Part shown: positions 9,819-60,708 of the stretch, one piece after another | Numbering within the stretch: position 1 is the first letter of the stretch | How the letters are laid out: each line of letters opens with the position of its first letter | Source: Roseovarius sp. | Lineage (GTDB): Bacteria; Pseudomonadota; Alphaproteobacteria; Rhodobacterales; Rhodobacteraceae | Assembly: GCA_027493545.1 (NCBI GenBank) | Contig: JAOSKR010000001.1 | Location: forward strand, 586,001-650,000 | DNA: 64,000 nucleotides | Reading direction: 5' to 3' | Position numbers and translations under genes: made by a program | Notes under the pieces: generated by a model | Databases searched by the model: none | Told to the model about the DNA's origin: nothing | The model's input: only the letters and a program-made list of their open reading frames with translations

Positions 9819-10183
9819 GATCCCACCAGATCGTGCACCGCCGCCAGCATCTCGGCGTTGGAAAACGGTTTGGTCATGTAGCGGCTGGCTCCGGCGCGCC
9901 TGGCCATCTCGCGGTCCTTTTCCTGCCCGCGCGCGGTGAGCATCAGGACCGGGGTCGCGGCCAGCTCGGCATCGGCGCGGATGTCCTTGAGGATGTCAAA
10001 GCCGCTGCGGTCGGGCAGCATGACGTCGAGGATGACCAGGTCGGGCCGGCGTGTGCGCACCGCCTCGACGGCGTCCCGGCCGTTGGAGTGGGTTGTCACT
10101 TCCCAGCCGTCTCGGCTGAGGATAAAGCCGATCGCCTCGATGATGTTGCGCTCATCCTCGATCAGCAACACGGATTTTCCCAT
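9815..10183 (-). CDS. Single-domain response regulator
   Basis: The 122-residue protein is one receiver domain. It has the acidic pocket around D10, the phosphorylation site D53 (LVILDVMLPD), T83 and K105 (TKPF), and no output domain. It should accept phosphate from the symporter-type kinase encoded two genes downstream. Without a DNA-binding domain its effect must come through a protein partner or phosphotransfer. Confidence 0.88.
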   Translation of the reverse strand: MGKSVLLIEDERNIIEAIGFILSRDGWEVTTHSNGRDAVEAVRTRRPDLVILDVMLPDRSGFDILKDIRADAELAATPVLMLTARGQEKDREMARRAGASRYMTKPFSNAEMLAAVHDLVGS

Positions 10184-10252
10184 TCAATCGGCCTCCCCTC
10201 CGATCGCGCCGCGGATGGGCGCAGTTCACTATTGTCAAAGTCGGGTAAGGTG

Positions 10253-11559: not shown

Positions 11560-11674
11560 CGCGGATTTCCGATTGAAACACTGTGTTTTACCGGGTTCAT
11601 ACAAAAAACTTTACAACAGCACCGATCCTGTTGTCCATTTTTTTACAAAAAAAATGTTTCGCCAAAGCCTGTTG

Positions 11675-11704
11675 TTGCGAAATTTTCCACCACCCTGCGA
11701 TAAT
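11675..11704 (+). promoter_or_regulatory. Sigma-70-type promoter for the ABC transporter operon
   Basis: TTGCGA (11675-11680) and GATAAT (11699-11704) are separated by 18 bases, about 75 bases before the solute-binding-protein start. The surrounding 100 bases are AT-rich, unlike the rest of the region, and contain TTTGCA-like half-sites that a RamB-type regulator could use. Confidence 0.5.
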
Positions 11705-11777
11705 TGCTTTGCACATCCGTGTGTTGCCTGGGCGCAGAGGAGGCGTTTCGGGTCATCTCATAAACGGGAGGATATCC

Positions 11778-13130: not shown

Positions 13131-13140
13131 GCGCGCCACG

Positions 13141-13170
13141 GGCCCCGGCCGCGCCGCGCGCGGCCGGGCC
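13141..13170 (+). promoter_or_regulatory. Strong intercistronic hairpin
   Basis: A G/C-only stem (GGCC-CGGCCGCG against CGCGGCCGGGCC with one bulged C) stands 10 bases after the binding-protein stop. There is no T-run, so it probably protects the upstream mRNA and lifts binding-protein levels over the permeases. This arrangement is common in ABC operons. Confidence 0.55.
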
Positions 13171-13227
13171 ACCGGTTTCCGACTCCGCCGGACTGATCCG
13201 GATCACTCAACCCACGGGTGGGGGCAA

Positions 13228-14259
13228 ATGGACGCAATTCTTCTGCAAATTCTCAACGGGCTCGACAAGGGCTCGGCCTATGCGCTGATCGCGCTGGGGC
13301 TGACGCTGATCTTCGGCACGCTGGGCGTGGTGAACTTCGCCCATGGCGCGCTGTTCATGATCGGGGCGTTCTGCGCCGTCACGCTACAGAAGCTGCTGAG
13401 CCTCAGCTACGTGGTCATCGACGAGACCAAGACCGATTTCATGGGCAATCCACTGAAGGTCGAGATGCCCTATGTCGCGAAATGGTTCGGCCCCGAGATC
13501 GGCGCGACCATCATCGACTGGTCGGTGCCCCTGGCGATCCTGTTCTCGATCCCGGTAATGATCGCCATCGGCTTCGCGATCGAGCGCGGGCTGATCAAGT
13601 ATTTCTACCGCCGTCCGCATGCCGACCAGATTCTGGTGACCTTCGGCCTCGCCATCGTGCTGCAGGAGATCGTCAAGTACTATTTCGGCGCCAACCCGAT
13701 CCCCACCCCGGCGCCCGACATGTTCGCCGGCAGCATCGACATCGGGATGCTGGTGGGCTTCGATCCCAACGCCATCGTCTATCCCTCGTGGCGGCTGATC
13801 TACTTTGCCTTCGCGGCGCTCATCATCGGCGGGGTCTTCGCATTCCTGCAGTTCACCACCTTCGGCATGGTGGTGCGCGCCGGCATGGCCGACCGTGAGA
13901 CGGTCGGCCTCCTGGGCATCAACATCGACCGCCGCTTTACCATCATGTTCGGTATCGCCGCCGCCGTGGCCGGCCTCGCGGGCGTGATGTATGCCCCGAT
14001 CAATTCGCCCAACTATCACATGGGCATGGACTTTCTGGTCCTCAGCTTCGTTGTCGTCGTTGTCGGCGGCATGGGCAGCCTGCCGGGCGCGGTTCTGGCC
14101 GGCTTCCTGCTGGGCATCCTGGAAAGCTTCGCATCGACCACCTGGGCCACGACGACCATTCCGGGCATCAACCAGGTCGTCATCTACCTTGTCGCCATCA
14201 TCGTCCTTCTGGCGCGTCCGCGCGGTCTGATGGGACGCAAAGGCGTGATGGAGGACTGA
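13228..14259 (+). CDS. ABC transporter permease, LivH type
   Basis: The 343-residue protein has eight or more membrane helices. It begins with the LivH hallmark (LNGLDKGSAYALIALGLTLI) and GVVNFAHGALFMIGAF, and later has VVVVGGMGSLPGA. It forms the membrane channel with the LivM-type subunit, whose gene starts four bases downstream. It is somewhat longer than standard LivH because of an insertion after the first helices (residues about 55-85). Confidence 0.88.
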   Translation: MDAILLQILNGLDKGSAYALIALGLTLIFGTLGVVNFAHGALFMIGAFCAVTLQKLLSLSYVVIDETKTDFMGNPLKVEMPYVAKWFGPEIGATIIDWSVPLAILFSIPVMIAIGFAIERGLIKYFYRRPHADQILVTFGLAIVLQEIVKYYFGANPIPTPAPDMFAGSIDIGMLVGFDPNAIVYPSWRLIYFAFAALIIGGVFAFLQFTTFGMVVRAGMADRETVGLLGINIDRRFTIMFGIAAAVAGLAGVMYAPINSPNYHMGMDFLVLSFVVVVVGGMGSLPGAVLAGFLLGILESFASTTWATTTIPGINQVVIYLVAIIVLLARPRGLMGRKGVMED

Positions 14260-42132: not shown

Positions 42133-42198
42133 GACCAATCAAGCTTTCGCGATAGGTGCATGCTTGACCAATCAAGCTTTCGCGATAGGTGCTTGCTT
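42133..42198. repeat. 33-bp tandem duplication
   Basis: Two adjacent copies (42133-42165 and 42166-42198) begin GACCAATCAAGCTTTCGCGA and differ by one base. They lie in the space between DUF1223 and acnA, within the acnA upstream region. Confidence 0.9.
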
Positions 42199-42317
42199 GC
42201 AACCAGGTTAGTTGTGTGCGATTGTATACCAAACCGGCCCGCCCCCTTGAACGCCATGTCCAAATGCGTCAGAAGCAGGCCGGAATTGCCAGCCCCGATC
42301 GCGAAAGGACCGCCCGC

Positions 42318-45099
<2,782 letters not shown>

Positions 45100-45144
45100 G
45101 GAAAGAGGGCGCGGGGCCGAGGCTCCGGCGTTGCGAGTGGAAGA

Positions 45145-45170
45145 CGGGCGGGGGTTTCCCGCCCGTTTTG
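45145..45170 (+). terminator. Rho-independent terminator after acnA
   Basis: ACGGGCGGG (45145-45153) pairs with CCCGCCCGT (45159-45167), followed by TTT. It lies 46 bases after the acnA stop and closes the core block before the low-G+C island. Confidence 0.85.
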
Positions 45171-45252
45171 TGTTGGGGGGGTGTTTGGGTTGGAGGTTGA
45201 GGGGTCCGGAGGCAGCCTGAAGCGGATATGCCAGCACAAGTGTAGGTTGACC

Positions 45253-45431: not shown

Positions 45432-46978
45432 ATGCAGAACGCTTTGAAGGTCGAAATTAAGAGGTTATCAAAAAGACCTTTGCAAAAGCAGAGCGACAAG
45501 AAAAGACAGAGCAACAATATCGGTCAAGATTTGAGAAGCGCACGGGGAAAGCGGCAGGCGTTCCAAAACCAAGGGCGACGGCCATTCCGCACCGACACTT
45601 TGACCCAAAGTTCTGCGCTCGAAATGCAAATTTCTTAGCCAAAACAATTTGGCACAAGGTACTGACTGGCCAGTATGAGCCAATACCCGCAGTCAACTAC
45701 CAGATACCGAAACCGGATGGATCAAAGCGCAATATCATGGCGTTCTCGATACCGGACGCAGCCTTGGCCAACGTTGTACTCAAACGAACGCGAGAACGAA
45801 ACACAAAGCGTCTTTCTCCGTCTTCATACGCCTACCACCCAGATAAGAATGTTTTTGACGCCATACTGGCACTGACCGATTTTGATGCTGGCGGCAAGTT
45901 GTACGCGGTCCAAATCGACTTCGAAAAGTACTTCGACATGATCCCAACGGGGTACCTGACCGAGAGGCTAGAAGATGCTCGCAAAATCAGTCTGACGCCT
46001 CACGAGCGGCATATCTTCGATAGGTTCCTTCGCCACCGTTATTGCGACTATAAGGAATATTCCAAAGGCAAGTTCAAGCGGCGGCACAAGGGAACGCCGC
46101 AAGGGTCGTCAGTGTCCCTCTTATTGGCGAATATTGCCAATCACGAATTAGACACGGCGTTAGCCGCTCAGTCTGGAAAGTTCGTCCGCTTTGCTGACGA
46201 TGTGGTTGCTCTCTGCCGAACCTATGAACAAGCCCAACTTTTGGAACGCTGTTTCTATGATCATTGTTCAAACAGCGGCCTCAAAATCAACGAAGAGAAA
46301 TCGCCGGGCGTCGCAATCATTGCTGGCAGTGAGCAAGAGCTTCGCAGTTATCCGCACTTTGACTACTTAGGCTATCGTTTTGGACAAGAAGGCCTTGGCG
46401 TGCCTGATAAAGTGGTCGCGCGGATCAAGGCCCGCATATCGCGCTTGGTCAATATTTACTTGCTGCAATATTTGGACGAAGGCTTCAACTCTAACCGTGC
46501 CGCTACGGCGCCTCATGCGTACGATTGGGACTTATTGGGGCTCCTCTATGAGCTACGGCGTTCACTCTATGGTGGGTTGTCTGAGGAAGAATTGTGGGCC
46601 TTCATTCACGAAGGAAAGATGCTACGCAAAATGAAGGGCCTCATGGGCTTTTACTGTTTGATTGACGATCCAAGCGAAATGCGCAAGCTGGATGGCTGGA
46701 TGCTCAGCATTGTTCGCAGGGCAATGGTGAGCCGCGACAGGGTACTAAAGGTTAAGTACGGACAAAACTGCCCTACGCCGACAAACGCTCAGTTGGCTAC
46801 GGGTAATTGGCTGGACATGAAGGCTTGGCGGGGTGACGATTTACCAGAGGCCAGAATGCCCAGTTTGATTCGCGGCTGGAGAGCGGCTCGAAAGCACTAC
46901 TACACGTTTGGATTGGAAAATGTAGAGGCCCCTACCTACGTCGCGTATGCTGATATTGCTGACCTGTTCGACTATTGA
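45432..46978 (+). CDS. Stand-alone reverse transcriptase, unknown group (one frame break near the start)
   Basis: About 515 residues restored. The catalytic core from ATG 45737 shows motif A (YAVQIDFEKYFDMI, Asp at residue 61 of that frame), GTPQGSSVSLLLANI and motif C FADD (46190-46201) before GLKINEEKS. Open sequence upstream (YQIPKPDGSKRNIMAFS, IPHRHFDPKFCARNANFLAK) is clearly part of the same protein and has no start codon in frame. One missing base in the A-run at 45470-45474 would link it to ATG 45432 (MQNALKVEIKRLSK). There is no maturase or endonuclease domain as in group II introns. Base composition is much lower in G+C than the neighbours, so it was probably acquired. A defence-type reverse transcriptase is likely. 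Confidence 0.75.
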
Positions 46979-47287: not shown

Positions 47288-47303
47288 CATTAGCGTACAA
47301 ATG
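47288..47303 (+). promoter_or_regulatory. Regulon operator, site 1
   Basis: CATTAGCGTACAAATG lies 26 bases before the TTG start of the dehydrogenase operon. It sits inside a near-palindrome (TTCATT 47286-47291 and AATGAA 47300-47305). It matches the motifs at 55821 and 58110. Confidence 0.7.
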
Positions 47304-47329
47304 AAGTCACCCGTTGAGGGAGGACGGTA

Positions 47330-48186
47330 TTGACCTATCTGGTGCCCAATTCGCTCGATGAGGCGCTGGCGCTGCTGCGCGAGCGAAAGCCGTTGATTGT
47401 CGCGGGCTGCACCGACGTCTATCCCGGGCTGCGGCCGGGGCAGCGTCTCGGCGAGGTTCTCGACGTGGCGCATCTGTCTGAGCTGCGGGGGATAACCGGG
47501 GGCGCCGCCGGCTGGCGGCTGGGCGCCGCCACGACCTGGGCCGAGATCGCCGCCGCCGCCCTGCCGCCGGCCTTCGATGCCCTGCGGCAGGCGGCGCGCG
47601 AGGTCGGCGGCATCAGATCCAGAACGCCGGCACGGTGGCGGGAAACATCTGCAACGCCTCGCCGGCCGCCGACGGGGTGCCGCCGCTGCTGGCGCTGGGG
47701 GCCGAGGTCGAGCTGGCCTCGACCGGCGGGCGGCGGCGGGTGGCGCTGGCCGATTACATCACCGGCGTGCGCCGCACGGTGCGGCTGCCGGACGAGCTGG
47801 TGGTGGCGGTGCACGTGCCGCATCCGCCCGAGGGTGCGCGCGGCGCCTTTGTCAAGCTCGGCTCGCGCAGCTCGCTGGTGATCTCGATCGCGATGGTGGC
47901 GGCGGTGGTGCGCAGCGATGCGGGCCGCATCATCGAGGCACGGGTGGCGGTCGGGGCGTGTTCGCCGGTCGCCCGCCGCCTGACTGACTGGGAGACGGCG
48001 CTCGCCGGGTGCGAATTGTCGGAACTGGAAAGCCTGCGCCCCGATCCGGCGGCGCATCTGTCAGCCCTGGCCCCGATCGACGACGCGCGCGCGACCGCAG
48101 CCTATCGGTTGAGCGCCGTGCGGGAGCTGTGCCTGAGGGCGGTGCGGCAGGCGGCAGCTGCGAGGGAGATCATGGATGTTTGCTGA
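47330..48186 (+). CDS. FAD-binding subunit of a molybdenum hydroxylase (one frame break)
   Basis: About 285 residues of the CoxM/XdhB type, which moves electrons from the Fe-S centres through FAD. It has the FAD loops (IVAGCTDVYPGLRPG and, after the break, QNAGTVAGNICNASPAAD). One C is missing near 47613. The start is TTG at 47330, chosen because a strong GAGGGAGG site is six bases upstream and no better start exists. It overlaps the next gene by 11 bases. The cluster suggests a nicotinate-type substrate. Confidence 0.85.
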
Positions 48187-50917
48187 GTTCGGTGCGCAAA
48201 CCACCCGCTTTACCCTGAACGGCAGCGCGGTCGCGGTCGAGGCGCCCCCGGGCGAGCGGCTGTCGGACAGCCTGCGCGAACGGCTGGGCGCGCGCGACGT
48301 CAAGGTCGGCTGCAATGCCGGCGATTGCGGCTCCTGCTCGGTGCTGGTCGATGGCGAGCTGGTCTGTTCGTGCCTGATGCCGACCCGCAAGGCGGCCGGA
48401 CGGCGGATCGAGACGGTGGCGGGGCTGATCGCCTCCGAGCCGCTGGCGCGGGACCTCGCGCAGCGGTTCCGAGGACCACGGCGCCGCGCAATGCGGCTTT
48501 TGCACCCCGGGGATGATGGCCGCCTCGGTCGCCCTGCTGCGGCAGGATCCGATACCGGACGAGAGCGCCATCAACCGCGCCCTCGGGGCGTGCTGTGCCG
48601 GTGCACCGGGTATCGCAAGATCGTCGATGCGGTCGGCGGCGTGCCGGCGCACCTCGCCGGTGCCGATGACGCCGGGCATGCCGGTGCCGCCATCCGCCGG
48701 CTGGACGGCGCGCCCAAGCTCGATGGTTCCGAGATTTTCGGTGACGATGTGGCGCCGCCCGGAACGCTGGAGATTTTCGTCATCCGCTCGCCCTTTGCGC
48801 GCGCCGCCTTCGGTTTTGATGACCTGGACGGCTGGTGCGCCCGCACCTCCGGCATCGAGGCGGTGCTGACTGCCGCCGATATCGGCGGGCGCAACGCGTT
48901 CGGAGTGATCCCGTCCTTTGCCGATCAGCCCGCCTTTGCCGAAAAGGTCGCGCGGTTCCCCGGCGAGGCGGTGGCTGCGGTGGTGGGAACGCCGGAGGTC
49001 ATCCGCGACTTCGATCCGGCCACCTTTCCGGTTCGCTGGCAGGAACTCGACGCCGCGCGGACTCGGCCGAGGCCCGCGCCGGGGGCGCCGCGCTGCTGCA
49101 CGAGGGGGCGCGCGGGGAACGTGATGTGCTCGGGCTTCGTCGCCTGCGGCGATCCCGAGGCCGCGCTCGAGGCGGCCGAGGTGCAGGTCGAGCGTCGCTA
49201 TTCCAGCGGCTTCGTCGAGCATGCCTATCTCGAGCCCGAGGCGGGTTTCGCGCAGATGGTCGGCGACCGGGTCGAAATCCACACCTGCACCCGGGCGCCG
49301 GTGATGGACCTCGACTCGATGGAGATCCTGCTCGGCATCGACCGCTCGCGCATCCGCATCGTGCCGACGGCCGTCGGCGGCGGTTTCGGCTCCAAGCTCG
49401 ACATCTCGCTGCAGCCCTACCGGCGCTTGGCGCGCTCAAGACCGGCCGGCCGGTGCGAATGACCTACAGCCGGGCCGAATCGATGCGCTCGACCACCAAG
49501 CGTCACCCTTCGGACATCCGTCTGCGGATCGGTGCCGATCGCGAGGGCCGCATCTCGGGCTGCGATTTCCGCGGGGATTTCGATACCGGAGCCTATGCCT
49601 CGTGGGGGCCGACAGTGGCAAACCGGGTGCCGGTGCATGCCTCCGGCCCCTACCGGATCGCCGACTACCGCGCCGAGGCCCGGGCCATCCATACCAACAA
49701 CCCACCCTCGGGGGCCTTTCGCGGGTTTGGCGTGCCGCAGGCGGCGATCGCACTCGAATCGGCGCTCGACGAGCTGGCCGAAAAGCTGGGGATCGACCCG
49801 CTGGAATTGCGGCTGCGCAACGCGCTGACGAACGGTGTCCCCCACCGTCTGCGGCCGGGTCTTCGCGCAGGGCGTCGGCATCCGTGCCTGCCTCGAGGCT
49901 CTGCGCCCCGCCTGGGCGGCCGAGCGCGCGGCGGCGGCGGAGTTCAACCGCGCGGGCGGCGGCACGCTGCGGCGCGGCGTGGGCGTGGCCGCGGGGTGGT
50001 ACGGATGCGGCAACACCTCGCTGCCCAACCCCTCGACGATCAAGGCGGGCATCACCCGCGACGGCAGGCTCGTGCTCCACCAGGGAGCGATGGATATCGG
50101 CCAGGGCGCCAACACGGTGATCGCGCAGATCTTTGCCACCGCCCTCGGTGTGTCGCTTGGCTCTGTCGGTCTGATCGGTGCCGACACCGACATCACGCCG
50201 GATGCCGGCAAGACCTCGGCCTCGCGCCAGACCTTCGTTTCGGGCAACGCGGCGCGGCTCTGCGGCGAGGCGCTCAGGGCGCAAATCCTCGGGCTGGTCA
50301 ACGCCTCCGATGCGGCCTGCCTCGAGATCGCTTCCGGCACCATCGCGGTCGTCGAGGGCGAAAGGCGCCACGAGATCGGCCTTGGCCGCCTCGATGAGGG
50401 CGAGGACGGCTATGTGCTGTCCGCCAGCGGCCATTACGATCCGCCGACCAGGCCGCTTAACGAGAACGGCCAGGGCATTCCCTATGCCCAGTTCGGCTAT
50501 GCCGCGCAGCTTGTCGCGCTCGAGGTCGATACCGGCCTCGGCACGGTGGCGCTCAGACGCATCGTCGCCGCGCATGATGTGGGCCGCGCGATCAACCCGA
50601 TGCTGATCGAGGGCCAGATCCAGGGCGGTATCGCGCAGGGCATCGGCATGGCGCTGATGGAGGAATACATTCCCGGCCGAACCGACAACCTGCACGACTA
50701 CCTGATCCCGACCGTGGGCGACATCCCCCCGATCGAGTCGATCGTCATCGAGGAGGCGGACGCCCACGGCCCCTATGGCGCCAAGGGGCTGGGGGAGCAT
50801 GTCCTGATCCCGACCGCACCCGCGATCCTGAACGCGATCCGCCACGCCTGCGGCGTGCGGATGACCAGCGTACCCGTAACCCCCGCGAAACTTTTCGCGG
50901 CATTGGCTGGAGACTGA
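48176..50917 (+). CDS. Molybdenum hydroxylase, fused 2Fe-2S and molybdopterin subunits (six frame breaks)
   Basis: About 913 residues. Residues 1-150 form the two-cluster domain: C46, C51, C54 (GCNAGDCGSC), then QCGFCTPGMM and CRCTGYRK. The rest is the molybdopterin domain (GGGFGSKLDIS, PPSGAFRGFGVPQ, GQGANTVIAQIFA, GPYGAKGLGEHVLIPTAPAI with the catalytic Glu in the GLGE segment). Six single-base breaks (near 48470, 48586, 49057, 49115, 49420, 49840) cancel in sum. The protein resembles nicotinate dehydrogenase-type enzymes, which hydroxylate a ring carbon next to nitrogen. The fused layout differs from the separate subunits of Eubacterium barkeri. Confidence 0.85.
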
Positions 50918-50918
50918 C

Positions 50919-52406
50919 ATGGCGAACCCCGCGGACCGGATGGCCGACAAGATCCGTTGCGATGCGTGCCCCGTCCTGTGTTACATCGCCGACGGGCGTT
51001 CGGGCGCCTGCGACCGCTATGCCAATCACGGCGGCAAGCTGGTGCGGCTCGACCCGCTGACGATCATCGAGGGCGCCACCGAGAGCGGGGTCGCGGCGGT
51101 TCCCTTCCTCAAGGGGGCGGACTGGGACGGCGACATCGTGCAGGGCGGGCGGCCGTTCATCACCGCCGTGGGCGCCGGCACCACCTATCCCGACTACAAG
51201 CCCGCGCCCTTCATCGTCAGCCAAGCCGTTGACGGCGTGGACATGGTCACCGTCGTGACCGAGGGCATCTTCAGCTATTGCGGCGCCAAGGTGAAGATCG
51301 ACACCGATCGCTTCATCGGCGAGGAACGCGCCGTGGTGCGCGTCGATGGCGAGCCGATCGGCCATGTCATGACCTCGGAATACGGCTCCAAGATGCTGTC
51401 GCTGGGCGGGGTCGAGCACCTCACCGGTGGCGGCAAGAAGGAGGGCCGGGTGACCTGCGACGCGCTGCTCAGGCTGTGCAACCGCGAGGCGGTCGAGATG
51501 ACCGTCGACGACGGCGCGACGGTCGTGGTCCAGGCCGGGCAGGCGCCGGTCATCAACGGGGTGCGCGAACGCCTGATGCGCGTGGGCTGCGGATCGGCCA
51601 CCATCGGCATGTTCGCGACCCACTGGGCCGGGCATGTCGACGAGGTGGTGGTGGTCGACGACCACATCACCGGCGTCCTGTCCGAACACCAGTCGGGCAA
51701 GCTTCTGGACATTCCGCCCAGCGGCCTCCGGGTCAAGGGGCGGCGCTCGACGCCGGGGCGGTATTTCCAGGTCGCCGAACCCGGCACCGGCTGGGGCGGC
51801 ACCAACATCGAGGATCCGCTGACCATCCTCAAGGAACCCGATCCCGATATCGCCTGGGAGGGGTTGCGGCTGCTGATGGTCTCGACCACCGGCGAGCAGC
51901 ACGCCTATTTCGAACTCGATGCCGATCTGCGCCCGGTCCCGGCGCCGCTTCCCGCCGATCTCAGGGCCTCGGTGGACCTCATTGCCGAGAACTGCGAACC
52001 GTCGCTCTGTTCGGTGCTGTTCATGGCCGGGGCGGGGGGCTCGCTCAGGGCGGGCGTCACGCAGAACCCGGTCAGGCTGACATGCTCGGTCAAGGACTCG
52101 CTCACCCATGTTTCCTGCGGTGGCGCTGAAGCCTATGTCTGGCCCGGCGGCGGCATCACCGTGATGGTGGACGTCACCGAGATGCCGAGCAACTCGTTCG
52201 GCTACGTTCCGACGCCCGCGCTGGTGGCGCCGATTGAGTTCACCCTGCGCCTTTCGGATTACGTCGCGCTGGGCGGCCATGCCGATCGGGTGCGCCCGAT
52301 CGAGGAGGTGCTGAGCGACGAGGTGCGCCGTGTCGGCCGGATCGACCGGAAGAGCGACCCGATGGCGCGGCACAACTTCCGCTGGCCGAAGGACGAACAG
52401 ACATGA
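50919..52406 (+). CDS. 6-hydroxynicotinate reductase-type iron-sulfur protein
   Basis: The 495-residue protein begins with a cysteine cluster C14-x2-C17-x3-C21 and C31 (IRCDACPVLCYI, GACDRY) and matches proteins annotated as 6-hydroxynicotinate reductase. That enzyme of Eubacterium barkeri reduces the ring to 1,4,5,6-tetrahydro-6-oxonicotinate. Several further regions fit (ISQAVDGVDMVTVVTEGIFS, TSEYGSKMLSLGG). The start follows the hydroxylase stop after one base, and its stop overlaps the next ATG. The reading frame is intact. The electron donor is unknown. Confidence 0.75.
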   Translation: MANPADRMADKIRCDACPVLCYIADGRSGACDRYANHGGKLVRLDPLTIIEGATESGVAAVPFLKGADWDGDIVQGGRPFITAVGAGTTYPDYKPAPFIVSQAVDGVDMVTVVTEGIFSYCGAKVKIDTDRFIGEERAVVRVDGEPIGHVMTSEYGSKMLSLGGVEHLTGGGKKEGRVTCDALLRLCNREAVEMTVDDGATVVVQAGQAPVINGVRERLMRVGCGSATIGMFATHWAGHVDEVVVVDDHITGVLSEHQSGKLLDIPPSGLRVKGRRSTPGRYFQVAEPGTGWGGTNIEDPLTILKEPDPDIAWEGLRLLMVSTTGEQHAYFELDADLRPVPAPLPADLRASVDLIAENCEPSLCSVLFMAGAGGSLRAGVTQNPVRLTCSVKDSLTHVSCGGAEAYVWPGGGITVMVDVTEMPSNSFGYVPTPALVAPIEFTLRLSDYVALGGHADRVRPIEEVLSDEVRRVGRIDRKSDPMARHNFRWPKDEQT

Positions 52407-53287
52407 CGTTCGCGGGGCCGGTCGCGGCGCTGCTGGACGGCAGCGAGAGGCTGCATCTGCAGCACGGGCCGATCGACCTGATCATCGGCGCCGAGGGCAC
52501 GAGCGGCGCCGGGCGGCAGCAGGCCTTTGCCGCCGCCGCGCGGCGCTTCGATGACCTGTTGGAGACGCTGGTCGCGGAGCTGCCGGCCCTCAGGGCACGG
52601 ATGACGGTTGATACGCCCGCCCCCATTGGCGGCGTAGCGCGGAGGATGGCGGCCGCCACCCGCCCACACTGCGCGACCGCGTTCGTCACCTGCATGGCCG
52701 CCGTCGCCGGTGCCGTGGCCGATGAGGTTCTCGCGGCGATGACGGCCGTGGTGCCGCTGCGCCGCGCCTACGTGAACAATGGCGGCGACATCGCGCTGCA
52801 TCTGACCGGGGCGGCGCGGTTCACCGCGGCGGTTGCGGGGCTCGATGGCTCTGGCCTTGGCCGCATCGTGCTTGGCGCCGGGGACGGCATCGGCGGCATG
52901 GCCACCAGCGGCGCCGGCGGACGCAGCCTGTCGCTGGGGATTGCCGACAGCGTGACTGTACTCGGCGCGAACGCCGCCGCGGCCGATGCCGCGGCAACGC
53001 TGATCGCCAATGCCGTCGATCTGCCCGGGCATCCCGGCATCCGCCGCCGGCCGGCCTGCGATCTGCATCCCGACAGCGATCTCGGCCGGCGTCCGGTGGT
53101 GACCGAGGTGCCGGATCTCAGCACGGGAGACGTCGACGAGGCGCTCTCTGCCGGGGCGGCGCGGGCCGATGCGATGCTGGGCCGCGGCCTGATCGTCGGT
53201 GCGGCGCTGTTCCTGCAGGGGCGCGCCCGGGTGGTCGGCGCGGTGCCGGCGCCACGAATTCAGCCAAGAGAGGTAACCAATGCCTGA
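52403..53287 (+). CDS. UPF0280 family (ApbE-like) protein
   Basis: The 294-residue protein belongs to UPF0280 (DUF375), a family related to ApbE flavin transferases. Visible motifs: ALLDGSERLHLQHGPIDLII, MAAVAGAVADEVL, AYVNNGGDIALHL, GMATSGAGGRSLSLGIADSV. ApbE attaches FMN to threonine, but whether UPF0280 proteins do so is unproven. It overlaps both neighbours (four and eight bases), so it is tightly coupled to the reductase-type gene and may mature it. Confidence 0.8.
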   Translation: MTFAGPVAALLDGSERLHLQHGPIDLIIGAEGTSGAGRQQAFAAAARRFDDLLETLVAELPALRARMTVDTPAPIGGVARRMAAATRPHCATAFVTCMAAVAGAVADEVLAAMTAVVPLRRAYVNNGGDIALHLTGAARFTAAVAGLDGSGLGRIVLGAGDGIGGMATSGAGGRSLSLGIADSVTVLGANAAAADAAATLIANAVDLPGHPGIRRRPACDLHPDSDLGRRPVVTEVPDLSTGDVDEALSAGAARADAMLGRGLIVGAALFLQGRARVVGAVPAPRIQPREVTNA

Positions 53288-53861
53288 GGTCAGGATACGC
53301 AAGCGCTTGCTTGTGCTCGAGGATATCTATCACGAAGGCGGCCCGCCGCGGGCCGAGCCGCACCGGCGCGGGGCCGCGCTCGCGGTGGTCGCCAACCCGT
53401 TTGCCGGCCGTTACGAGCCCGACATCCAGGGCTTCATGGACGACCTGCGCCCGCTGGGGCTGGAAATGGCGCAATCGCTGGCCGGGGCGCTGGGCGGGGC
53501 CGAAAGGATCGAAGGTTACGGCAAGGCCGCCATCGTCGGCGCGGCCGGAGAGCTCGAGCACGGCGCGCTCTGGCACGCGCCGGGGGGCTACGCGATGCGC
53601 GAGGTGCTGGGGGGCGCGCGCGCGATCGTGCCCTCGGCCAAGAAGGTGGGCGGCGTGGGCGCGCGCATCGACGTGCCGATCACCCATGTCAACGCCTCGT
53701 ATGTGCGCAGCCACTTCGACGCCTTCGAGGCCGGGCTGAACGATGCGCCGCGCGCCGACGAAATCCTGCTGGCGCTGGCAATGACCACCGGGCCGCGCAT
53801 CCATTCCCGTTGCGGCGGACTGGAAGCCCGGCAGATCAAGGGAGAGGACGGTCTGAAATGA
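53280..53861 (+). CDS. Amino acid synthesis family protein (DUF1185), copy 1
   Basis: The 193-residue protein shows ANPFAGRYEPDIQGFMDDLR, GYGKAAIVGAAGELEHGALW and PITHVNASYVRSHFDAFEAG, the DUF1185 (PF06684) pattern. Function is not known despite the family name. It overlaps the UPF0280 stop by eight bases and is followed by its paralogue. Confidence 0.82.
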   Translation: MPEVRIRKRLLVLEDIYHEGGPPRAEPHRRGAALAVVANPFAGRYEPDIQGFMDDLRPLGLEMAQSLAGALGGAERIEGYGKAAIVGAAGELEHGALWHAPGGYAMREVLGGARAIVPSAKKVGGVGARIDVPITHVNASYVRSHFDAFEAGLNDAPRADEILLALAMTTGPRIHSRCGGLEARQIKGEDGLK

Positions 53862-54442
53862 AGGCGAAGATACGCAAGCTGGGGGTCTGGATCGAGGAGA
53901 CCCATGAGGAAGCCGGCCGGGCGATCCGCCCGCCCACGCGCAAGGCGGTGGCGGCAGCGGTGATCGAGAATCCCTTTGCCGGGCGCTATGTCGATGATCT
54001 GGCCGATCTGATGGATGTCGGCGAGGAGCTGGGCAAGCTTCTGGGCGAGCGCTGCGTGGCGGCGCTGGGGATACGGCCGGAACAGGTGCAAAGCTATGGC
54101 AAGGCGGCGATGGTCGGCGAGAACGGCGAGCTCGAACATGCCGCGGCGATCCTCCATCCCAAGCTCGGCGCGCCCCTGCGTAAGGCGGTCGAGCACGGCG
54201 CGGCCCTGGTGCCATCGTCCAAGAAGCGCGGCGGCATGGGGCAGGATCTGGATATCCCGCTCGGTCACAAGGACGCGGCCTTCGTGCGGTCGCATTTCGA
54301 CGGCGTTGAAATCCGCTTCAACGACGCCCCGCGCGCGAACGAGATCGTCGTCGCGGTGGCGGTGGCCGACAGCGGCCGCCCGCTGCCCCGCGTCGGCGGG
54401 CTGAAGGCCGAAGACATCGAGGGCAAGGACGGCCTGCGGTAG
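53858..54442 (+). CDS. Amino acid synthesis family protein (DUF1185), copy 2
   Basis: The 194-residue paralogue of the previous gene has the same landmarks: ENPFAGRYVDDLADLMDVG, SYGKAAMVGENGELEHAAA, RSHFDGVEIRFNDAPRANE. It starts at ATG 53858, overlapping the previous stop (ATGA). The two are diverged but co-linear over their full length, which suggests an old tandem duplication and a heteromeric complex. Confidence 0.82.
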   Translation: MKAKIRKLGVWIEETHEEAGRAIRPPTRKAVAAAVIENPFAGRYVDDLADLMDVGEELGKLLGERCVAALGIRPEQVQSYGKAAMVGENGELEHAAAILHPKLGAPLRKAVEHGAALVPSSKKRGGMGQDLDIPLGHKDAAFVRSHFDGVEIRFNDAPRANEIVVAVAVADSGRPLPRVGGLKAEDIEGKDGLR

Positions 54443-54475
54443 CTGCATGTCGCGCGCAAAGCGGAAACATCCGCG

Positions 54476-54494
54476 CCCCGGGCCTGACCCGGGG
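54476..54494 (+). terminator. Possible operon-end hairpin
   Basis: CCCCGGG (54476-54482) pairs with CCCGGGG (54488-54494) 34 bases after the last gene of the operon. No T-run follows, so Rho-independent termination is uncertain. Confidence 0.35.
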
Positions 54495-54604
54495 CCGCGC
54501 CCCGGCATGAAAGGCCCCGGTGCGGCGGTCGGGCCGGGCATTCATCCGAAATGATGCGACGCGCGGTAGCTTTGGTGGAAAGACGCCGTCGCCTTGCCGC
54601 GCGG

Positions 54605-55792
54605 TCAGCGCGTCTGCACCCGTTCGGGCAGCCGCTGCGCCGGGGGTGTGTTGCGGCTGCGTTCGCTGCGCACGACCCCGTCGATGATGGTCATCCCGAC
54701 CCCCGGCAGATTGCCCTGCCGCACCGATTCGAGCAGGTCCTTGCCGGGCGCATGCTGGGCCTGGTCCATCAGCACGAAATCGGCGGCGAAGCCGGGTTCG
54801 AGCAGGCCGACATCGAGCTCGCGCTGCCGCGCGGTGTTGCCGGTGGCGAAGCAGAAGGCGATTTCGGCCGGAACGTTGCCGAGGCTGGACAGCATCGCCA
54901 CCATCCGCAGGATGCCCAGCGGCTGAACCCCCGAACCTGCGGGGCCGTCGGTGCCGAGAATCACCTGATCGAGCTTGTCCAGTTCGCGCGCGGTGTTAAT
55001 CGTCAGCAGGGCCGCGCGCTCGTTGCCGTTGTGCACGACCTCGAGCCCCTTGCTGCAGTTTTCGCACAGGCAGACGATCTGATCGTCGGGCAGGGCCGAA
55101 TGGCCGCCGTTGATATGGCCGACCACGTCGGCGCCGGTTTCCAGCACCATGTCGGCGTCGATCAGGCCCGAGCCGGGAATCGACGGCCCGCCGGTGTGGA
55201 TGGTGCTCTGGATGCCGTATTTGCGCGCCCACTCCACCATCTGCCGCGCGGTCTTGCCGTCCTTGACCGAGCCGAGCCCGACCTCGCCCATCAGACGCAC
55301 CCCGGCGGCGGCGAGCTCGCGAAAGTCGTCCTCGACCATGCCGTGCTCGATCACCGGCGCGCCGGCATGGACCTTGACGCCGGAGGGGCGGAAATTCTCG
55401 TACCAGCGCTGCGCCGCGATGGCCATCGCCTTGAGCCCGACGATGTCCTTGGGCCGGCCCGGCATGTGAACCTCTCCCGCCGAGATCATCGTGGTGACGC
55501 CGCCATGCAGCGTGCTGTCGATCCAGTGCAGCTGCTGCTGGCGCGGTGTGTAATCGCCGACGACCGGGTGCACATGGCTGTCGATCAATCCGGGGATCAG
55601 CGTCGTCCCCTTCGCGTCGATGGTTGTGGACGCACCCTCGGTATCGAGATCCCTTTCGAATCCGACCGCGGAGATGCGGCCGTCGATCGCCACCACGCAA
55701 TCGCCATCGGCGATGGGCGCCTCGATCTTTCCGGTCAGCAACAGACCGATATTGCGAATGACAAGCTTGTCAGGCAAGGAGGGCTCAGACAT
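54605..55792 (-). CDS. Enamidase-type amidohydrolase
   Basis: The 395-residue metal-dependent amidohydrolase has H73-x-H75 (DSHVHPVVGDYTPRQ), GEVGLGSVKD with the bridging acidic residue, IHTGG and SHINGG-like VGHINGGHSA. I recall the enamidase of Eubacterium barkeri as highly similar, with the same DYxPRQ, LHGGVTTMISAG, GRPKD and SRNTPPA stretches. That enzyme opens 1,4,5,6-tetrahydro-6-oxonicotinate to 2-formylglutarate. It is the best pathway indicator in the cluster. It is divergent from marR, with operator site 2 just upstream. Confidence 0.82.
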   Translation of the reverse strand: MSEPSLPDKLVIRNIGLLLTGKIEAPIADGDCVVAIDGRISAVGFERDLDTEGASTTIDAKGTTLIPGLIDSHVHPVVGDYTPRQQQLHWIDSTLHGGVTTMISAGEVHMPGRPKDIVGLKAMAIAAQRWYENFRPSGVKVHAGAPVIEHGMVEDDFRELAAAGVRLMGEVGLGSVKDGKTARQMVEWARKYGIQSTIHTGGPSIPGSGLIDADMVLETGADVVGHINGGHSALPDDQIVCLCENCSKGLEVVHNGNERAALLTINTARELDKLDQVILGTDGPAGSGVQPLGILRMVAMLSSLGNVPAEIAFCFATGNTARQRELDVGLLEPGFAADFVLMDQAQHAPGKDLLESVRQGNLPGVGMTIIDGVVRSERSRNTPPAQRLPERVQTR

Positions 55793-55820
55793 CCGGGTAA
55801 CCTCTGCTTTCGATCAGTAT

Positions 55821-55836
55821 CGTTTGTATGCTAATG
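55821..55836 (-). promoter_or_regulatory. Regulon operator, site 2
   Basis: On the minus strand the sequence reads CATTAGCATACAAACG and matches 14 of 16 bases of site 1. It lies 29-44 bases before the amidohydrolase start and about 110 before the divergent marR. Confidence 0.7.
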
Positions 55837-55947
55837 TGAATCGTGACCAACGCAAGCATTGCCTTTTGCTGGACACGTCGGATCGCAGGGATCGGGGGCG
55901 CGTGAGGCGGCGATATAATAAAGTCCTCGGAGCGGTGAGGTAGACAC

Positions 55948-56406
55948 ATGAGCAGAGTCGACGATCGAACCGGGGCGGCGGAAAAAGGAGAGCAGGAGGC
56001 CTATGTCCTCGATGCGCAGATCGGCTTTCTGCTGCGGCTCGCCAACCAGCGACATGCGCTGATCTTTCTGGAACACGCGGTGATGGACCTGACGCCCACC
56101 CAGTTCGCCGTCCTGGTGCGCCTGCTCGACGATGGCCCGTGCTCGCAGAACGAGCTGGGGCGCCGGACGGCGATGGACGTGGCGACGATCAAGGGAGTGG
56201 TGGAACGGCTGCGCGACAAGGGGCTGGTATCGCTGAACCCCGATCCCAACGACAAGCGCCGCAAGACCATCTCGATCGCGGGTCCGGGCGAGCAGTTGCG
56301 CCCCACCCTGCACGAGATGGGCCACCGGATCACCGAAGAGACGCTGTCGCCCCTGACCCGGGCGGAACGCGCCACGCTGCTGCGGCTGCTGTCCAAACTG
56401 ACCTGA
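55948..56406 (+). CDS. MarR-family regulator, likely controller of the cluster
   Basis: The 152-residue protein has the MarR winged helix (LTPTQFAVLVRLLDDGPCSQ, ELGRRTAMDVATIKGVVERL, RDKGLVSLNPDPNDKRRK), with helical dimerisation ends. A perfect TATAAT (55914-55919) stands 29 bases upstream. It sits between two catabolic transcription units, divergent from the enamidase-type gene. The three operator-like motifs in the cluster make it the natural candidate to bind them, presumably released by the substrate or an intermediate. Confidence 0.85.
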   Translation: MSRVDDRTGAAEKGEQEAYVLDAQIGFLLRLANQRHALIFLEHAVMDLTPTQFAVLVRLLDDGPCSQNELGRRTAMDVATIKGVVERLRDKGLVSLNPDPNDKRRKTISIAGPGEQLRPTLHEMGHRITEETLSPLTRAERATLLRLLSKLT

Positions 56407-56475
56407 CCCGGCCAACCTGGCCGGCATGATCCTGCCGGGCGGCGGTCGGCGCCCGCCCGGCAAGGGCTGTCAGCC

Positions 56476-58031
56476 TCAGATCACCGAGACGTTGCCTGCA
56501 TAGGCCGCGACGATGTGTTCGTCGGCGTGGGCGGTCAGCGCCGCGATCTCGCGTTCCTGTTCGGCGCTCAGCATCCCCTCTTCGGGGGCGGCGGCGATGG
56601 CGGCCAGTGCCGCGTCGCGCGCCTCGTCGAAGGCCGTGCGGCGGCCGGTTTTCTCGTAGTCGTCGCGCCCCATCCGCTTGAACACCTTCGTCGACAGCTG
56701 GTCGCGGCAGGTCGCGATGGTGTGGGCGCTGTCGAGGAAATGGCCGCCGGTGCGGATCTGCATCAGCTCTTCCCAGTTCAGCGCCTCCTTGTCGAGGCTG
56801 GGCTTGCGGATGAACCGCCGCATCATCGCACCCACCTCGTTGTCGAGCACCGCCTGCACCGGGCTGAAGACGGTGGCGCATTCCAGCTGGCCGACACCGC
56901 CCAGGATATCGGCCCCCGCCAGCGCGACGGCCCGGGTCAGCATCGCACGTTCGGCCATCGACTGGTGGTCGACATCGGGAGTGTCCGAACCCGTGCCGTA
57001 GGTGTGCGCCACCACGCCCCAGCCGCGCTTCATCAGCTGGATCGACATGTTGGCCGCCTGCAGGCTTTCGACACAGCTTTGCAGGGCGCTGCCGGTGCTC
57101 ATGTCGAGCGTGAACATCAGCGGCGTCGCGATCACCGGCGTGCCCGGCGACAGGATATGCGTCATCACCGTCATGCCGACGATCTCGGCCGCCGCCATGA
57201 TCGCCATGGCGGGCACCGACAGGGCGCGGTTCCGCCCGAGGACGGCAGCGAACAGGCATGCAGCGGAATGCCGTATTCGCCGGCCTTTATGATGACATGG
57301 GTGTCCATGTACTTGAACTCGAGCGGCGTGAACGAGCAGGTGATGCAGCTTGTGATCGGATTGGCGCGCAACTGCTCTTCGCCCCCCGCCGCGATGGCGG
57401 CAATCCGCATCAGGTAATCGACGTTCTCCCACTGGTAGGGCTGCATCCAGACGTGCTTGGGGGTTCGCGCGATCAGGCGGCCGTAGCTGTGGATGTCCGA
57501 CGTCACCTCGGGGACGCCATGGACGAAGGGGTGGGCGATGAAACCCACCTCGTCGAGGGTGCTGGCCACGGCGGCGATCTCGGACACCGCGTCGAGGTCC
57601 ATCTTGCGATAGCTGGCGTCGCGCGGGTTCACATAGCCGTGCCCGCCGGTGCCGGTGCGCATGACGAAGCCGCGATCCGCACGCGGCAGGTCGATGTTGT
57701 AATGCTCCTGCTTGCCGCCCAGCCGGACCGACTTCGGCACCGCGGCCATCGCCTCGCGGATCAGTTCGCGCGGCATGCGGACGCGATTCGCGTCCGTGCC
57801 GGGCGTGGCGCCGGCGGCAAGAAAGCGTTCGTAGGCGTCCGGGTGCAGGATTGCCACGCCATAATCGGCCAGCACGTCCTCGACCCGCTCCTTCAGCCAC
57901 TCGACCTCGGAATCGCTGAGAAAACCGAATGTGGCACGCGTGAACTCGGGCGGCTCCTGCCGAAAGGCATTCGCCGGATTGCTGGCCCGTACGATGCGGG
58001 TACGTTTGCGGGTTCTTGTGCGGGCTTCCAT
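56476..58031 (-). CDS. Trimethylamine methyltransferase (MttB) family protein (one frame break)
   Basis: About 518 residues of the MttB superfamily, without an amber/pyrrolysine codon in the frame. Landmarks: EWLKERVEDVLADYGVAILH, MQPYQWENVDYLMRIAAIAA, CITCSFTPLEFKYMDTHVII and, after a missing base near 57230, ALSVPAMAIMAAAEIVGM and QLECATVFSPVQAVLDNEVG. Non-pyrrolysine members demethylate quaternary amines such as glycine betaine, proline betaine and carnitine, giving the methyl to a corrinoid protein. I chose ATG 58031 because GGAG is six bases upstream; ATG 58061 is an alternative. No corrinoid protein is visible in the window. Confidence 0.85.
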
Positions 58032-58109
58032 GACTGACTCCATGAGAACAGGTTTGCTCATGGCACACACCGATTCAACTGACTGCCTGCCGACTTCAGC
58101 GAGAAATAA

Positions 58110-58125
58110 CGCTAGCATACTAATG
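58110..58125 (+). promoter_or_regulatory. Regulon operator, site 3
   Basis: CGCTAGCATACTAATG matches 12 of 16 bases of site 1. It lies 79-94 bases before the methyltransferase start at 58031, in its promoter region. The stretch 58126-58433 beyond it shows no gene. Confidence 0.6.
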
Positions 58126-58433
58126 AGTTTGGTCAACCGGATCTTTTGGCCGGACCTGTCGGAGGAACCCCGGTCGGGGGCGGCCGGTGCGGACGGACCT
58201 GTCAGGACGATCCAGCTGGCGCTCCGGGTGGGGTCGTCCTGCCCTGCTGGTCATCCAGCGCTTCGGGCGCGGCAAGATCCCGGCCTGAACATGGCCTGTC
58301 CTTGCCTCTCTTTTTTCCGCACGCCCGCGCCCCAGGAAACAGAAGGCAAAGCTGCTGCCACACGAAACCGCATTCCGTGCGCGCCCGGCAATGGGGCGCC
58401 GGGGTCAAAGCCTCGCCAAAACCTTGATCTCAG

Positions 58434-58509: not shown

Positions 58510-58615
58510 ACGTAGCGCGCTGTCTAGAAAGTGGCGCCGGGGCGGTCAACCCATATTTTCCGGGATGCGCCCGCCATCGCTGGATTCGTCCGCGCCCCGG
58601 GGCTATATGCGCCCC

Positions 58616-59456
58616 ATGAACGCGCCTGCGGATACCGGACTGCCCTTCATGAAGATGCACGGGCTGGGCAACGACTTTGTCGTGCTCGACGGGCGCGCGC
58701 GCGCGGTCCGGGTGACGCCGGCGCTGGCGCGGGCGCTGGGTGACCGGCGGCGCGGCATCGGGTTCGACCAGCTGGCGCTGATCGGGCCGGGTGAGGGGGG
58801 CGCCGACGCGCATCTGAGCTTCTGGAACGCGGATGGCTCGACCTCGGCGGCCTGCGGCAACGCCACCCGCTGCATCGCGCGCCTGCTGATGGAGGAGACC
58901 GGCCGCGACCGGCTGAGCCTGACCACCGCGCGCGGCAAGCTCGCGGCCGTCGATGCCGGCGGCGGGCTCACGGCCGTCAACATGGGGCCGCCGCAGCTTG
59001 ACTGGCGGGACATTCCGCTCACCGACGCGATGGACACGCTCGAGTTGCCGATCGAGGGCGGGCCCACGGCGACCAGCATGGGCAATCCGCACTGCACCTT
59101 TTTCGTGCCCGACGCCGAGGCCGTGCCGATGGAGCAGTTCGGCCCGCGCTACGAGCATCACCCGCTCTTTCCCGAGCGCACCAACGTGCAGGTGGCAAGC
59201 GTCACCGCGCCCGACCGGCTGCGCCTCAGGGTATGGGAGCGCGGCGCCGGGCTGACGCTCGCCTCGGGCTCGTCTTCCTGCGCCGCGGCCCGTCGCCGCG
59301 GCGCGGCGGGGGCTGACCGGGCGCGCGGTGACGGTCGATCTCGACGGCGGCACGCTCGGGATCGACTGGCGCGAGGATGGCGTCTGGATGACCGGCCCCA
59401 CCGCGCATGTCTGCGACGGTGTGATCACGCCGGCGTTTCTGGCGGGCGCGACATGA
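58616..59456 (+). CDS. dapF: Diaminopimelate epimerase (one frame break)
   Basis: About 279 residues. It converts LL- to meso-diaminopimelate for lysine and peptidoglycan. Catalytic cysteines are seen in AACGNATRC and [34 protein letters not shown] and [12 protein letters not shown] are typical. One extra C at 59289-59291 breaks the frame; the other frame ends [20 protein letters not shown] at 59456. ATG 58616 is chosen; the next gene overlaps by four bases. Confidence 0.93.
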
Positions 59457-60708
59457 GCGCGCCGGTCTTCGCCACACTGGGCTGCCGCCTCAACGCCTAT
59501 GAGAGCGAGGCGATGAAGGCGATGGCCGACGAGGCCGGGCTGAATGATGCCGTCATCGTCAATACCTGCGCGGTGACCTCCGAGGCGGTGCGCAAGGCGC
59601 GCCAGGAGATCCGGAGGCTGCGGCGCGAGAACCCCGGCGCGCGCCTCATCGTCACCGGCTGCGCGGCGCAGACCGAGCCCGGAACCTTTGCCGCCATGGC
59701 CGAGGTCGATGCGGTGATCGGCAACGCCGAAAGATGCGGCCCGACACCTGGGCGGGGCTGGCCTCGGGTCTCATCGGCGAGACCGAGAGGGTGCTGGTCG
59801 ACGACATCATGAGCGTGACCGAGACGGCGGGACATCTGATCGACGGGTTCGGCACCCGCAGCCGCGCCTATGTTCAGGTGCAAAACGGCTGCGATCACCG
59901 CTGTACCTTCTGCATCATCCCCTATGGCCGGGGCAATTCGCGCTCGGTTCCCGCCGGCGTGGTGGTCGAGCAGATCAGGCGGCTGGTGGACAGGGGCTTC
60001 AACGAGGTGGTGCTGACCGGGGTCGATCTGACCGGCTGGGGTGGTGATCTGCCGGCGCGGCCGCGGCTGGGCGATCTGGTGATGCGCATCCTGCGGCTGG
60101 TGCCCGACCTGCCGCGGCTCAGGATTTCCTCGATCGATTCGATCGAGGCCGATCCCCGGCTGATGGAGGCGATCGCCACCGAGCCGCGGCTGATGCCGCA
60201 TCTGCACCTGTCGCTGCAGCACGGCGACGACCTGATCCTCAAGCGGATGAAGCGGCGGCACCTGCGCGACGATGCCATCCGGTTCGCCGAGGAGGCCCGC
60301 CGCCTGCGGCCCGACATGACCTTTGGTGCCGACATCATCGCGGGCTTTCCGACCGAGACCGGAGCGGCGTTCGAGAACTCGCTCAGGCTGGTGGAGGAAT
60401 GCCACCTGACGTGGCTGCATGTCTTTCCCTTCAGCCCGCGTCCGGGCACGCCCGCGGCGCGGATGCCGCAGCTCGACGGGCGCACGATCCGCAAGCGCGC
60501 CGCGCGTCTGCGCGAGGCCGGCGCGGCGCGCGTTGCCATGCATCTGGACGCGCAACAGGGCCGCGCGCACCGGGTGCTGATGGAGAGTGCGCGGATGGGC
60601 CGCACCGAGCAGTTCGCCGAGGTCGTTTTTGATGGCGATCGCGAGGAAGGCGCGATCGTTCCGGCCACCATCACCGGACGGCGCGAGCAGCGGCTGGTTG
60701 CCGTGTGA
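59453..60708 (+). CDS. mtaB: tRNA t6A37 methylthiotransferase MtaB (one frame break)
   Basis: About 418 residues. It is a radical SAM methylthiotransferase that converts t6A37 to ms2t6A37 in tRNA. The N-terminal UPF0004 domain has [15 protein letters not shown] and GCAAQ. The radical SAM motif is C-x3-C-x2-C in [19 protein letters not shown]-terminal TRAM-like part follows. One A is missing at 59730-59732. It overlaps dapF (ATGA), a common pair in this order. Confidence 0.9.

Follow-up and report, generated by a model that had tools for sequence, protein, structure and literature searches.

Do three copies of a short motif place a methyltransferase gene under the same control as a set of pyridine-degrading genes, and if so, which regulator reads them and what would the methyltransferase contribute? 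The question is raised by a 64,000-nucleotide stretch of a Roseovarius sp. genome (contig JAOSKR010000001.1 of assembly GCA_027493545.1), here called the window. It holds an operon for a molybdenum-dependent dehydrogenase and a candidate 6-hydroxynicotinate reductase (hnrA), followed by an enamidase gene (ena), a gene for a MarR-type regulator (marR) and a gene for a methyltransferase of the MttB superfamily (mttB). A preliminary description had united these genes into one catabolic regulon around MarR through a 16-base operator motif. We consider it reasonably probable that the three sites are MarR operators over the nicotinate operon, ena and mttB, and that MttB is likely a trigonelline N-demethylase. 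The case is comparative, built on the operator, its conservation, its association with MarR, the gene families, and the linkage and co-occurrence of mttB; the binding, the ligand, the substrate and the methyl acceptor are predictions.

On re-scanning the window, the three 16-mers were found exactly where they had been described: CATTAGCGTACAAATG at 47288-47303 (+), ahead of the dehydrogenase/hnrA operon; CATTAGCATACAAACG at 55821-55836 (-), between ena and marR; and CGCTAGCATACTAATG at 58110-58125 (+), ahead of mttB. Their centers lie approximately 34, 36 and 56 bp 5' of the starts of coxM, ena and mttB, respectively. The center of the second site is also about 119 bp 5' of the start codon of marR, so autoregulation by MarR is possible, and the claim that every promoter region of the cluster carries a site stands for the dehydrogenase operon, ena and mttB but only possibly for marR. 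All three are variants of a single imperfect palindrome, about YRTTWGYATRCWAAYR, and their orientation therefore carries no meaning. The form originally proposed, CRYTAGCRTACWAAYG, describes the three exact sites but is too narrow: the consensus of 119 sites of at least 20 bits in relatives, themselves picked by the matrix described below, is broader and matches the palindrome just given, with G6 and C11 invariant.

The bare number of sites is unremarkable. With three mismatches allowed, the window holds only these sites, two of them re-read on the opposite strand to give a count of 5, and 11 of 100 shuffles reached that count; the significance of the operator comes instead from its exactness, uniqueness and conservation. 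Searching the organism's own assembly (G000; 3,333,301 bases in 5 contigs, 91.5% complete) with the original pattern and up to two mismatches returned three places only, all with 0 mismatches, against 11 matches for the reversed control pattern. As the pattern was derived from the three sites, their exactness alone is a circular argument, which does not apply to the tests in relatives. We scored sites with a matrix trained on 10 sequences, the three window sites and seven from relatives of the same genus. In the order given above, the window sites reached 23.5, 25.1 and 21.5 bits, and the next-best position in the window 10.2 bits, in agreement with the claim that the motif occurs nowhere else there. 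A looser palindromic pattern added four GC-rich places in the assembly, with matrix scores of 5.5-12.6 bits.

For footprinting, we used the best 80 of 406 loci that, in the named genomes, code for a MarR related to that of the window. The counts per gene cover the range from 200 bp upstream to 20 bp inside the start of the matched gene, and omit the training genomes (L156, L166), genes cut by contig ends and partial gene matches. The 80 MarR loci contained 164 sites of at least 15 bits, compared with a total of 29 in three Markov copies, and 72 of the loci held at least one. A site was present 5' of coxM in 32 of 34 loci (4/680 shuffled upstreams) and 5' of ena in 46 of 56 (3/1120 shuffled upstreams), and the internal genes of the operon were nearly free of sites upstream (hnrA 1/58, the UPF0280 gene 0/63, the two AA_synth genes 0/63 and 0/64). 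Conservation in orthologous promoters, which the preliminary description had named as a check, is thus strong. Neither of the outcomes that it had set as refuting, many further hits in the genome or an unconserved motif, was observed. A first set of relatives had sites of at least 17 bits in 10 of 11 loci, with two genomes from other families and with six of the ten having supplied training sites; within that set, L026, whose MarR is 37% identical, had no site of at least 17 bits.

The proposed repressor is encoded by marR at 55948-56406 (+) and has a MarR winged-helix domain, PF12802 and PF01047 both scoring above cut-off. Its association with the motif was assessed in 58 loci selected for their hnrA gene (L181-L238), a non-random sample picked from genus and family listings. 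A site of at least 18 bits was found in 27 of the 31 loci with marR and in 2 of the 27 without (Fisher P = 7e-10). The catabolic genes are present in both sets, and we conclude that the motif goes with the regulator and not with hnrA as such; it is found alongside marR and rarely without it, which supports assigning the palindrome to MarR. These numbers and the conserved promoters support the idea of a catabolic regulon around MarR, with the reservation that cluster type confounds the association.

That reservation is one of several observations that weigh against the reading. Twenty-one of the 27 loci lacking marR carry a distant hnrA type of the organism's own genus, such that the association is partly confounded, and among loci of the close hnrA type the difference was not significant (24/26 with marR, 2/3 without; P = 0.29). 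Eight of the 80 MarR loci lacked a site of at least 15 bits, two of these being contigs of less than 6 kb, and the coxM upstreams of L134 and L154 lacked one as well. The regulon is further limited by equal-scoring sites outside the pathway in some relatives, at 22.8 bits ahead of thrS (G022) and at 21.2 bits within a tad gene (G009). The distant cluster type (65-70% hnrA identity; L198-L218) is without ena, a window-type MarR and the operator in all 21 own-genus loci, and may act on a different substrate or be under other control; the lack of nearby ena and marR makes hnrA an imperfect marker of the pathway.

A regulator other than the window MarR could bind the palindrome, and the four hnrA loci with marR that lack an 18-bit site, the two without marR that have one, and the different cluster type of most marR-less loci are in line with that. 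Site presence nevertheless tracks marR across the whole sample, and does so inside the distant type as well (3/5 with marR, 0/24 without; P = 0.003); in addition, marR itself is preceded by a site within 200 bp in 21 of 78 loci (median distance 116 bp). We hold another regulator to be very improbable, if a shade less so than before the confounding by cluster type was taken into account. Chance matching as an explanation of the sites was ruled out by their uniqueness in the genome, the gap in matrix scores, the footprint and the association with marR.

What MarR might sense can be approached through its ligand pocket. Among solved structures, the window MarR matched 2NNN best (4.5e-33), followed by 6PCP (6.6e-22) and 6PCO (1.2e-21). 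We take the latter two to be structures of BpsR and 2NNN to come from P. aeruginosa; 2NNN is a regulator with no role stated and is nearer to the window MarR than BpsR is. The counterparts of BpsR residues Y15, R26 and H32 are Y19, R30 and H36 in the window MarR and do not vary across the 80 orthologues. With H23, these are the residues by which BpsR contacts 6-hydroxynicotinate (PMC6837509). The counterpart of H23 is F27, and the orthologues have Y in 63, F in 15 and H in 2 of 80 cases, which speaks against full equivalence; because this contact is lacking, we do not class the window MarR with BpsR. From the residues, it probably works like BpsR with one defining contact missing. BpsR of Bordetella is likewise a MarR-family regulator of nicotinate catabolism, with three of its four 6-hydroxynicotinate contacts kept here, but the genes it governs, nicC and nicE, belong to the aerobic degradation of nicotinic acid (PMC6837509) and not to a reductive hnrA/ena pathway. 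NicR of Pseudomonas putida is similarly a MarR-like repressor of nic genes, in which the contact residues of BpsR are not conserved (PMC6837509). No operator sequences of BpsR or NicR for comparison were found in the literature searched, including the available parts of PMC6837509.

The genes under the first two operators fit reductive nicotinate breakdown, as judged from their families and arrangement. The operon starts with coxM (47330-48186, +), for the FAD-binding CoxM-type subunit of a xanthine-dehydrogenase-family hydroxylase that is probably a nicotinate dehydrogenase, and coxSL (48176-50917, +), for a fused [2Fe-2S] and molybdopterin subunit (CoxS-CoxL). Both are frame broken in the window, and in the relative L091 both are single open reading frames (ORFs), of 299 aa (9814-10713) and 913 aa (10717-13458). 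ARAGORN places a tRNA-Ser (gct) within coxSL at 48304-48386, probably a false positive. The reductase candidate hnrA follows at 50919-52406 (+), and then a conserved operon member at 52403-53287 (+), of the UPF0280 family, matching NF003322 above cut-off, and two genes for AA_synth proteins (PF06684) at 53280-53861 (+) and 53810-54442 (+). On the opposite strand, ena (54605-55792, -) matches the solved enamidase 2VUN over residues 9-388 (E = 1.3e-107). No Pfam or NCBIfam model matched hnrA, which takes its name from its context and from the corresponding cluster reported in Azorhizobium and Bradyrhizobiaceae (PMC3511419). The reductive pathway of Eubacterium barkeri and Azorhizobium caulinodans has the same clustering of a molybdenum hydroxylase, a 6-hydroxynicotinate reductase candidate and an enamidase, and some relatives of the window cluster also have an ABC transporter nearby; the MarR palindrome regulon, the MttB methyltransferase, and the UPF0280 gene with the AA_synth pair set the window cluster apart.

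A related pyridine carboxylate might be the substrate of the regulated pathway in place of nicotinate. The hydroxylase subunits have xanthine-dehydrogenase-family domains but match NCBIfam models only below their cut-offs, and a degrader of 6-chloronicotinate enters the same pathway at 6-hydroxynicotinate (PMC3511419). Against this stand the nearly full-length enamidase match, gene kinds like those of the Azorhizobium-type nicotinate cluster (PMC3511419), and a nicotinamidase gene adjoining an operator-controlled transporter in a relative, and we find a different carboxylate improbable.

The relative in question (G036) belongs to another alphaproteobacterial family. Its locus L096 (8374-11403) has the operator amid ABC-transporter genes, assigned by eye, with a nicotinamidase gene downstream (NF008623 above cut-off; 2WT9, 1.6e-78), and is likely a nicotinamide/nicotinate uptake unit of the regulon. 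Good sites are also found in this genome ahead of an aldehyde:ferredoxin oxidoreductase gene (L094) and a 2-oxoacid:ferredoxin oxidoreductase-type gene (L095). In Ruegeria and its relatives, sites precede genes for a 4Fe-4S ferredoxin, a CoA-transferase, an AMP-binding acyl-CoA synthetase and a short-chain dehydrogenase, the best model for the CoA-transferase being succinate-glutarate CoA-transferase, below cut-off. L100 and L101 have the operator ahead of an ABC transporter as well. HnrA probably depends on ferredoxin, and the additional targets fit a ferredoxin-fed reduction of the ring toward glutarate. A reductive route from nicotinate to glutarate is known from Azorhizobium (PMC3511419).

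The third operator concerns mttB (56476-58061, -), for a non-pyrrolysine methyltransferase of the MttB superfamily, with the start at 58061 set by eye from an alignment. The gene is frame broken in the window and intact, at 531 aa, in L100, L101 and L102, and the uninterrupted (non-Pyl) proteins of L101 and L102 match PF06253. Solved structures matched by the protein are 7XCL/7XCM, 2QNE and 9YCE, and its score against the trimethylamine equivalog is 246 bits, far under the cut-off of 525. In 3 of the 80 MarR loci, those of Defluviimonas SB22 (L100), isolate AG16 (L101) and Tabrizicola soli (L102), mttB adjoins marR as in the window, and in all three an operator precedes it, starting 40 bp 5' of the ORF. 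When the four mttB upstreams are aligned, a conserved block extends from about 10 bp 5' of a TTGAC motif through the operator into the gene, and the DNA farther upstream aligns poorly. TTGAC is kept in all four; in the window, it is part of a TTGACC assigned by eye at 58131-58136 (-), 5 bp upstream of the operator, which may be a -35 box.

The preliminary description had concluded that the motif links the methyltransferase to the ring-degrading genes. The arrangement and operator in three further genomes, together with the co-occurrence of unlinked genes described below, uphold the link, which is real but rare. Close relatives of mttB are found in 2 of 84 genus genomes (E 1e-30) and 21 of 394 family genomes (E 1e-60), the organism's own genome being counted in both. 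That MttB belongs to the pathway as a constant member was ruled out, since it occurs in only 3 of 80 MarR loci and 2 of 84 genus genomes.

Here too, some evidence runs counter to the proposed link. The four marR-linked mttB genes form one clade (support 100/97) and the linkage is known from these four genomes only. The 19 loci with an unlinked mttB (L029, L050-L067, some cut by contig ends; the hits in G327 and G440 are outside this set) gave no match to hnrA, ena, UPF0280, AA_synth or marR and had no operator 5' of mttB; one of them, L064, had one weak dehydrogenase match at 26% identity. The broken frames of coxM, coxSL and mttB in the window add to this, and the break in mttB could mean that the gene is decaying and its site a relic, or a chance match, without effect. 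However, L100, L101 and L102 carry an intact mttB, and what is conserved between the genes is the block with the operator. The genes split between frames in the window (42189-45200, 47330-50917, 56476-58136, 58565-60708) include, besides coxM, coxSL and mttB, genes that by eye are acnA, dapF and a neighbor; as acnA and dapF, which are expected to be essential, look broken too, and relatives have coxM, coxSL and mttB as single ORFs, sequencing error, through indels in the assembly, is likelier than decay. We regard a relic or ineffective site as extremely improbable.

A separate feature lies just ahead of the nicotinate cluster. The ORF at 45737-46978 (+) encodes a reverse transcriptase that PADLOC assigns to Drt9 (anti-phage DRT9; 5.6e-129), with the match covering profile positions 104-487 of 488 and about 100 N-terminal positions outside the ORF.

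Returning to mttB, its connection to the pathway extends beyond physical linkage. In the family, hnrA was present in 18 of the 21 genomes with mttB and in 117 of 373 others (P = 9e-7, statistics that ignore kinship), and with the organism's own genome excluded in 17 of 20 against 117 of 373 (P = 2e-6). The mttB genomes without hnrA are G176, G343 and G440, of which G343 is 85% and G440 74% complete, and among genomes at least 90% complete the counts were 16/17 with mttB and 103/330 without. Restricting hnrA to its close group gave 10/21 against 51/373 (P = 3e-4). In 17 genomes with mttB, 16 from the family draw plus G063 (G327 excluded), every hnrA locus contained the dehydrogenase and UPF0280 genes, and 13 of these loci had marR. 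The MttB family at large (PF06253) is found in 374 of the 394 family genomes, and for this reason a control with any MttB is uninformative. Among 384 other genomes drawn from the class, only two (G553 and G561, both of other families) had a strong mttB (E 1e-90), and in both an hnrA homologue stands beside dehydrogenase and UPF0280 genes. This hnrA is only of the distant type (67-69%), a further point on the other side of the balance. Directly 3' of mttB, both genomes (loci L243, L244) have a corrinoid-protein gene with PF02607 and PF02310.

Nicotinate is vitamin B3, and trigonelline, a plant and algal relative, is N-methylnicotinate, so its demethylation would yield the substrate of the pathway. 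Like the known substrates of the superfamily other than phosphocholine, it carries a carboxylate. Non-pyrrolysine MttB proteins demethylate quaternary amines, of which those known as substrates have a carboxylate with that one exception, and substrates have been identified for only about six members of the superfamily (PMC12155760). Trigonelline figures in PMC10805028 as an aromatic methylamine that might be a substrate but is unproven as one, and PMC12482172 has it only in its reference list; no report of trigonelline activity or breakdown by any MttB was found in the literature searched, as far as the available parts of its text go. As in other members of the superfamily (MtgB, MtpB, MtcB, MtyB, MthB), the window subfamily has PF06253, the matches to solved structures and, in two genomes, an adjoining corrinoid-protein gene; it differs in its co-occurrence with hnrA and in that the corrinoid protein of the own genome is encoded far from mttB. 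There, one B12-binding_2 protein was found, beside homocysteine methyltransferase and DUF1638 genes, a neighborhood resembling the split methionine synthase of Phaeobacter (PMC5764234). We tentatively propose, at somewhat less than even confidence, that the window subfamily is a corrinoid-dependent trigonelline methyltransferase that, in aerobic Rhodobacteraceae, supplies the MarR-controlled reductive ring-degradation pathway with nicotinate and hands the methyl group to the corrinoid protein that serves the split methionine synthase.

The regulon could be as described and the substrate of MttB another quaternary amine, such as glycine or proline betaine, carnitine or homarine, the mttB promoter having gained its operator for metabolic reasons unrelated to the supply of nicotinate. 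The operator-free unlinked mttB genes have other neighbors, including a Usp gene (L052, L053), GAPDH and DUF808 genes (L029) and a gene for a Crp-family regulator (L050 10495-11241, L051 10505-11251), the last hinting at other control. In L101, a GbdR-like AraC regulator, its best model below cut-off, is encoded about 6 kb from mttB, and the binding protein of the operator-preceded transporter resembles 4EQ7, titled polyamine-binding. That a trigonelline-specific MttB was not found in the literature searched adds to these points. On the other hand, co-occurrence with hnrA is specific to this subfamily although the MttB family spans nearly all genomes of the family, and an hnrA homologue also occurs in each of the two mttB genomes from other families. 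We see another amine as possible but doubtful.

With trigonelline as the substrate, the regulon might work as follows. When no inducer is present, a MarR dimer would sit on the palindrome over or beside the promoters of the dehydrogenase-hnrA-UPF0280-AA_synth operon, ena and mttB and block transcription. Nicotinate entering the cell would be hydroxylated, and 6-hydroxynicotinate or a near intermediate could then fill the BpsR-like pocket and, as the conserved residues suggest, release MarR. The products of the operon would convert nicotinate to 6-hydroxynicotinate, HnrA would reduce the ring and the enamidase would open it, toward glutarate. MttB would be a corrinoid-dependent N-demethylase that joined the regulon in the lineage of the window, with trigonelline as its likeliest substrate. 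Demethylation would supply the pathway with nicotinate, and a corrinoid protein would take up the methyl group; in this organism the acceptor is probably MtbC from the split methionine synthase.

The shared operator and the co-occurrence across genomes thus give a concrete substrate guess for one MttB subfamily. If true, this would be an aromatic (pyridinium) substrate, of a kind we did not find described for the MttB superfamily in the literature searched. The operator matrix itself is a tool for annotating nicotinate-catabolic regulons, including their transporters, ferredoxin and nicotinamidase, across the Rhodobacteraceae.

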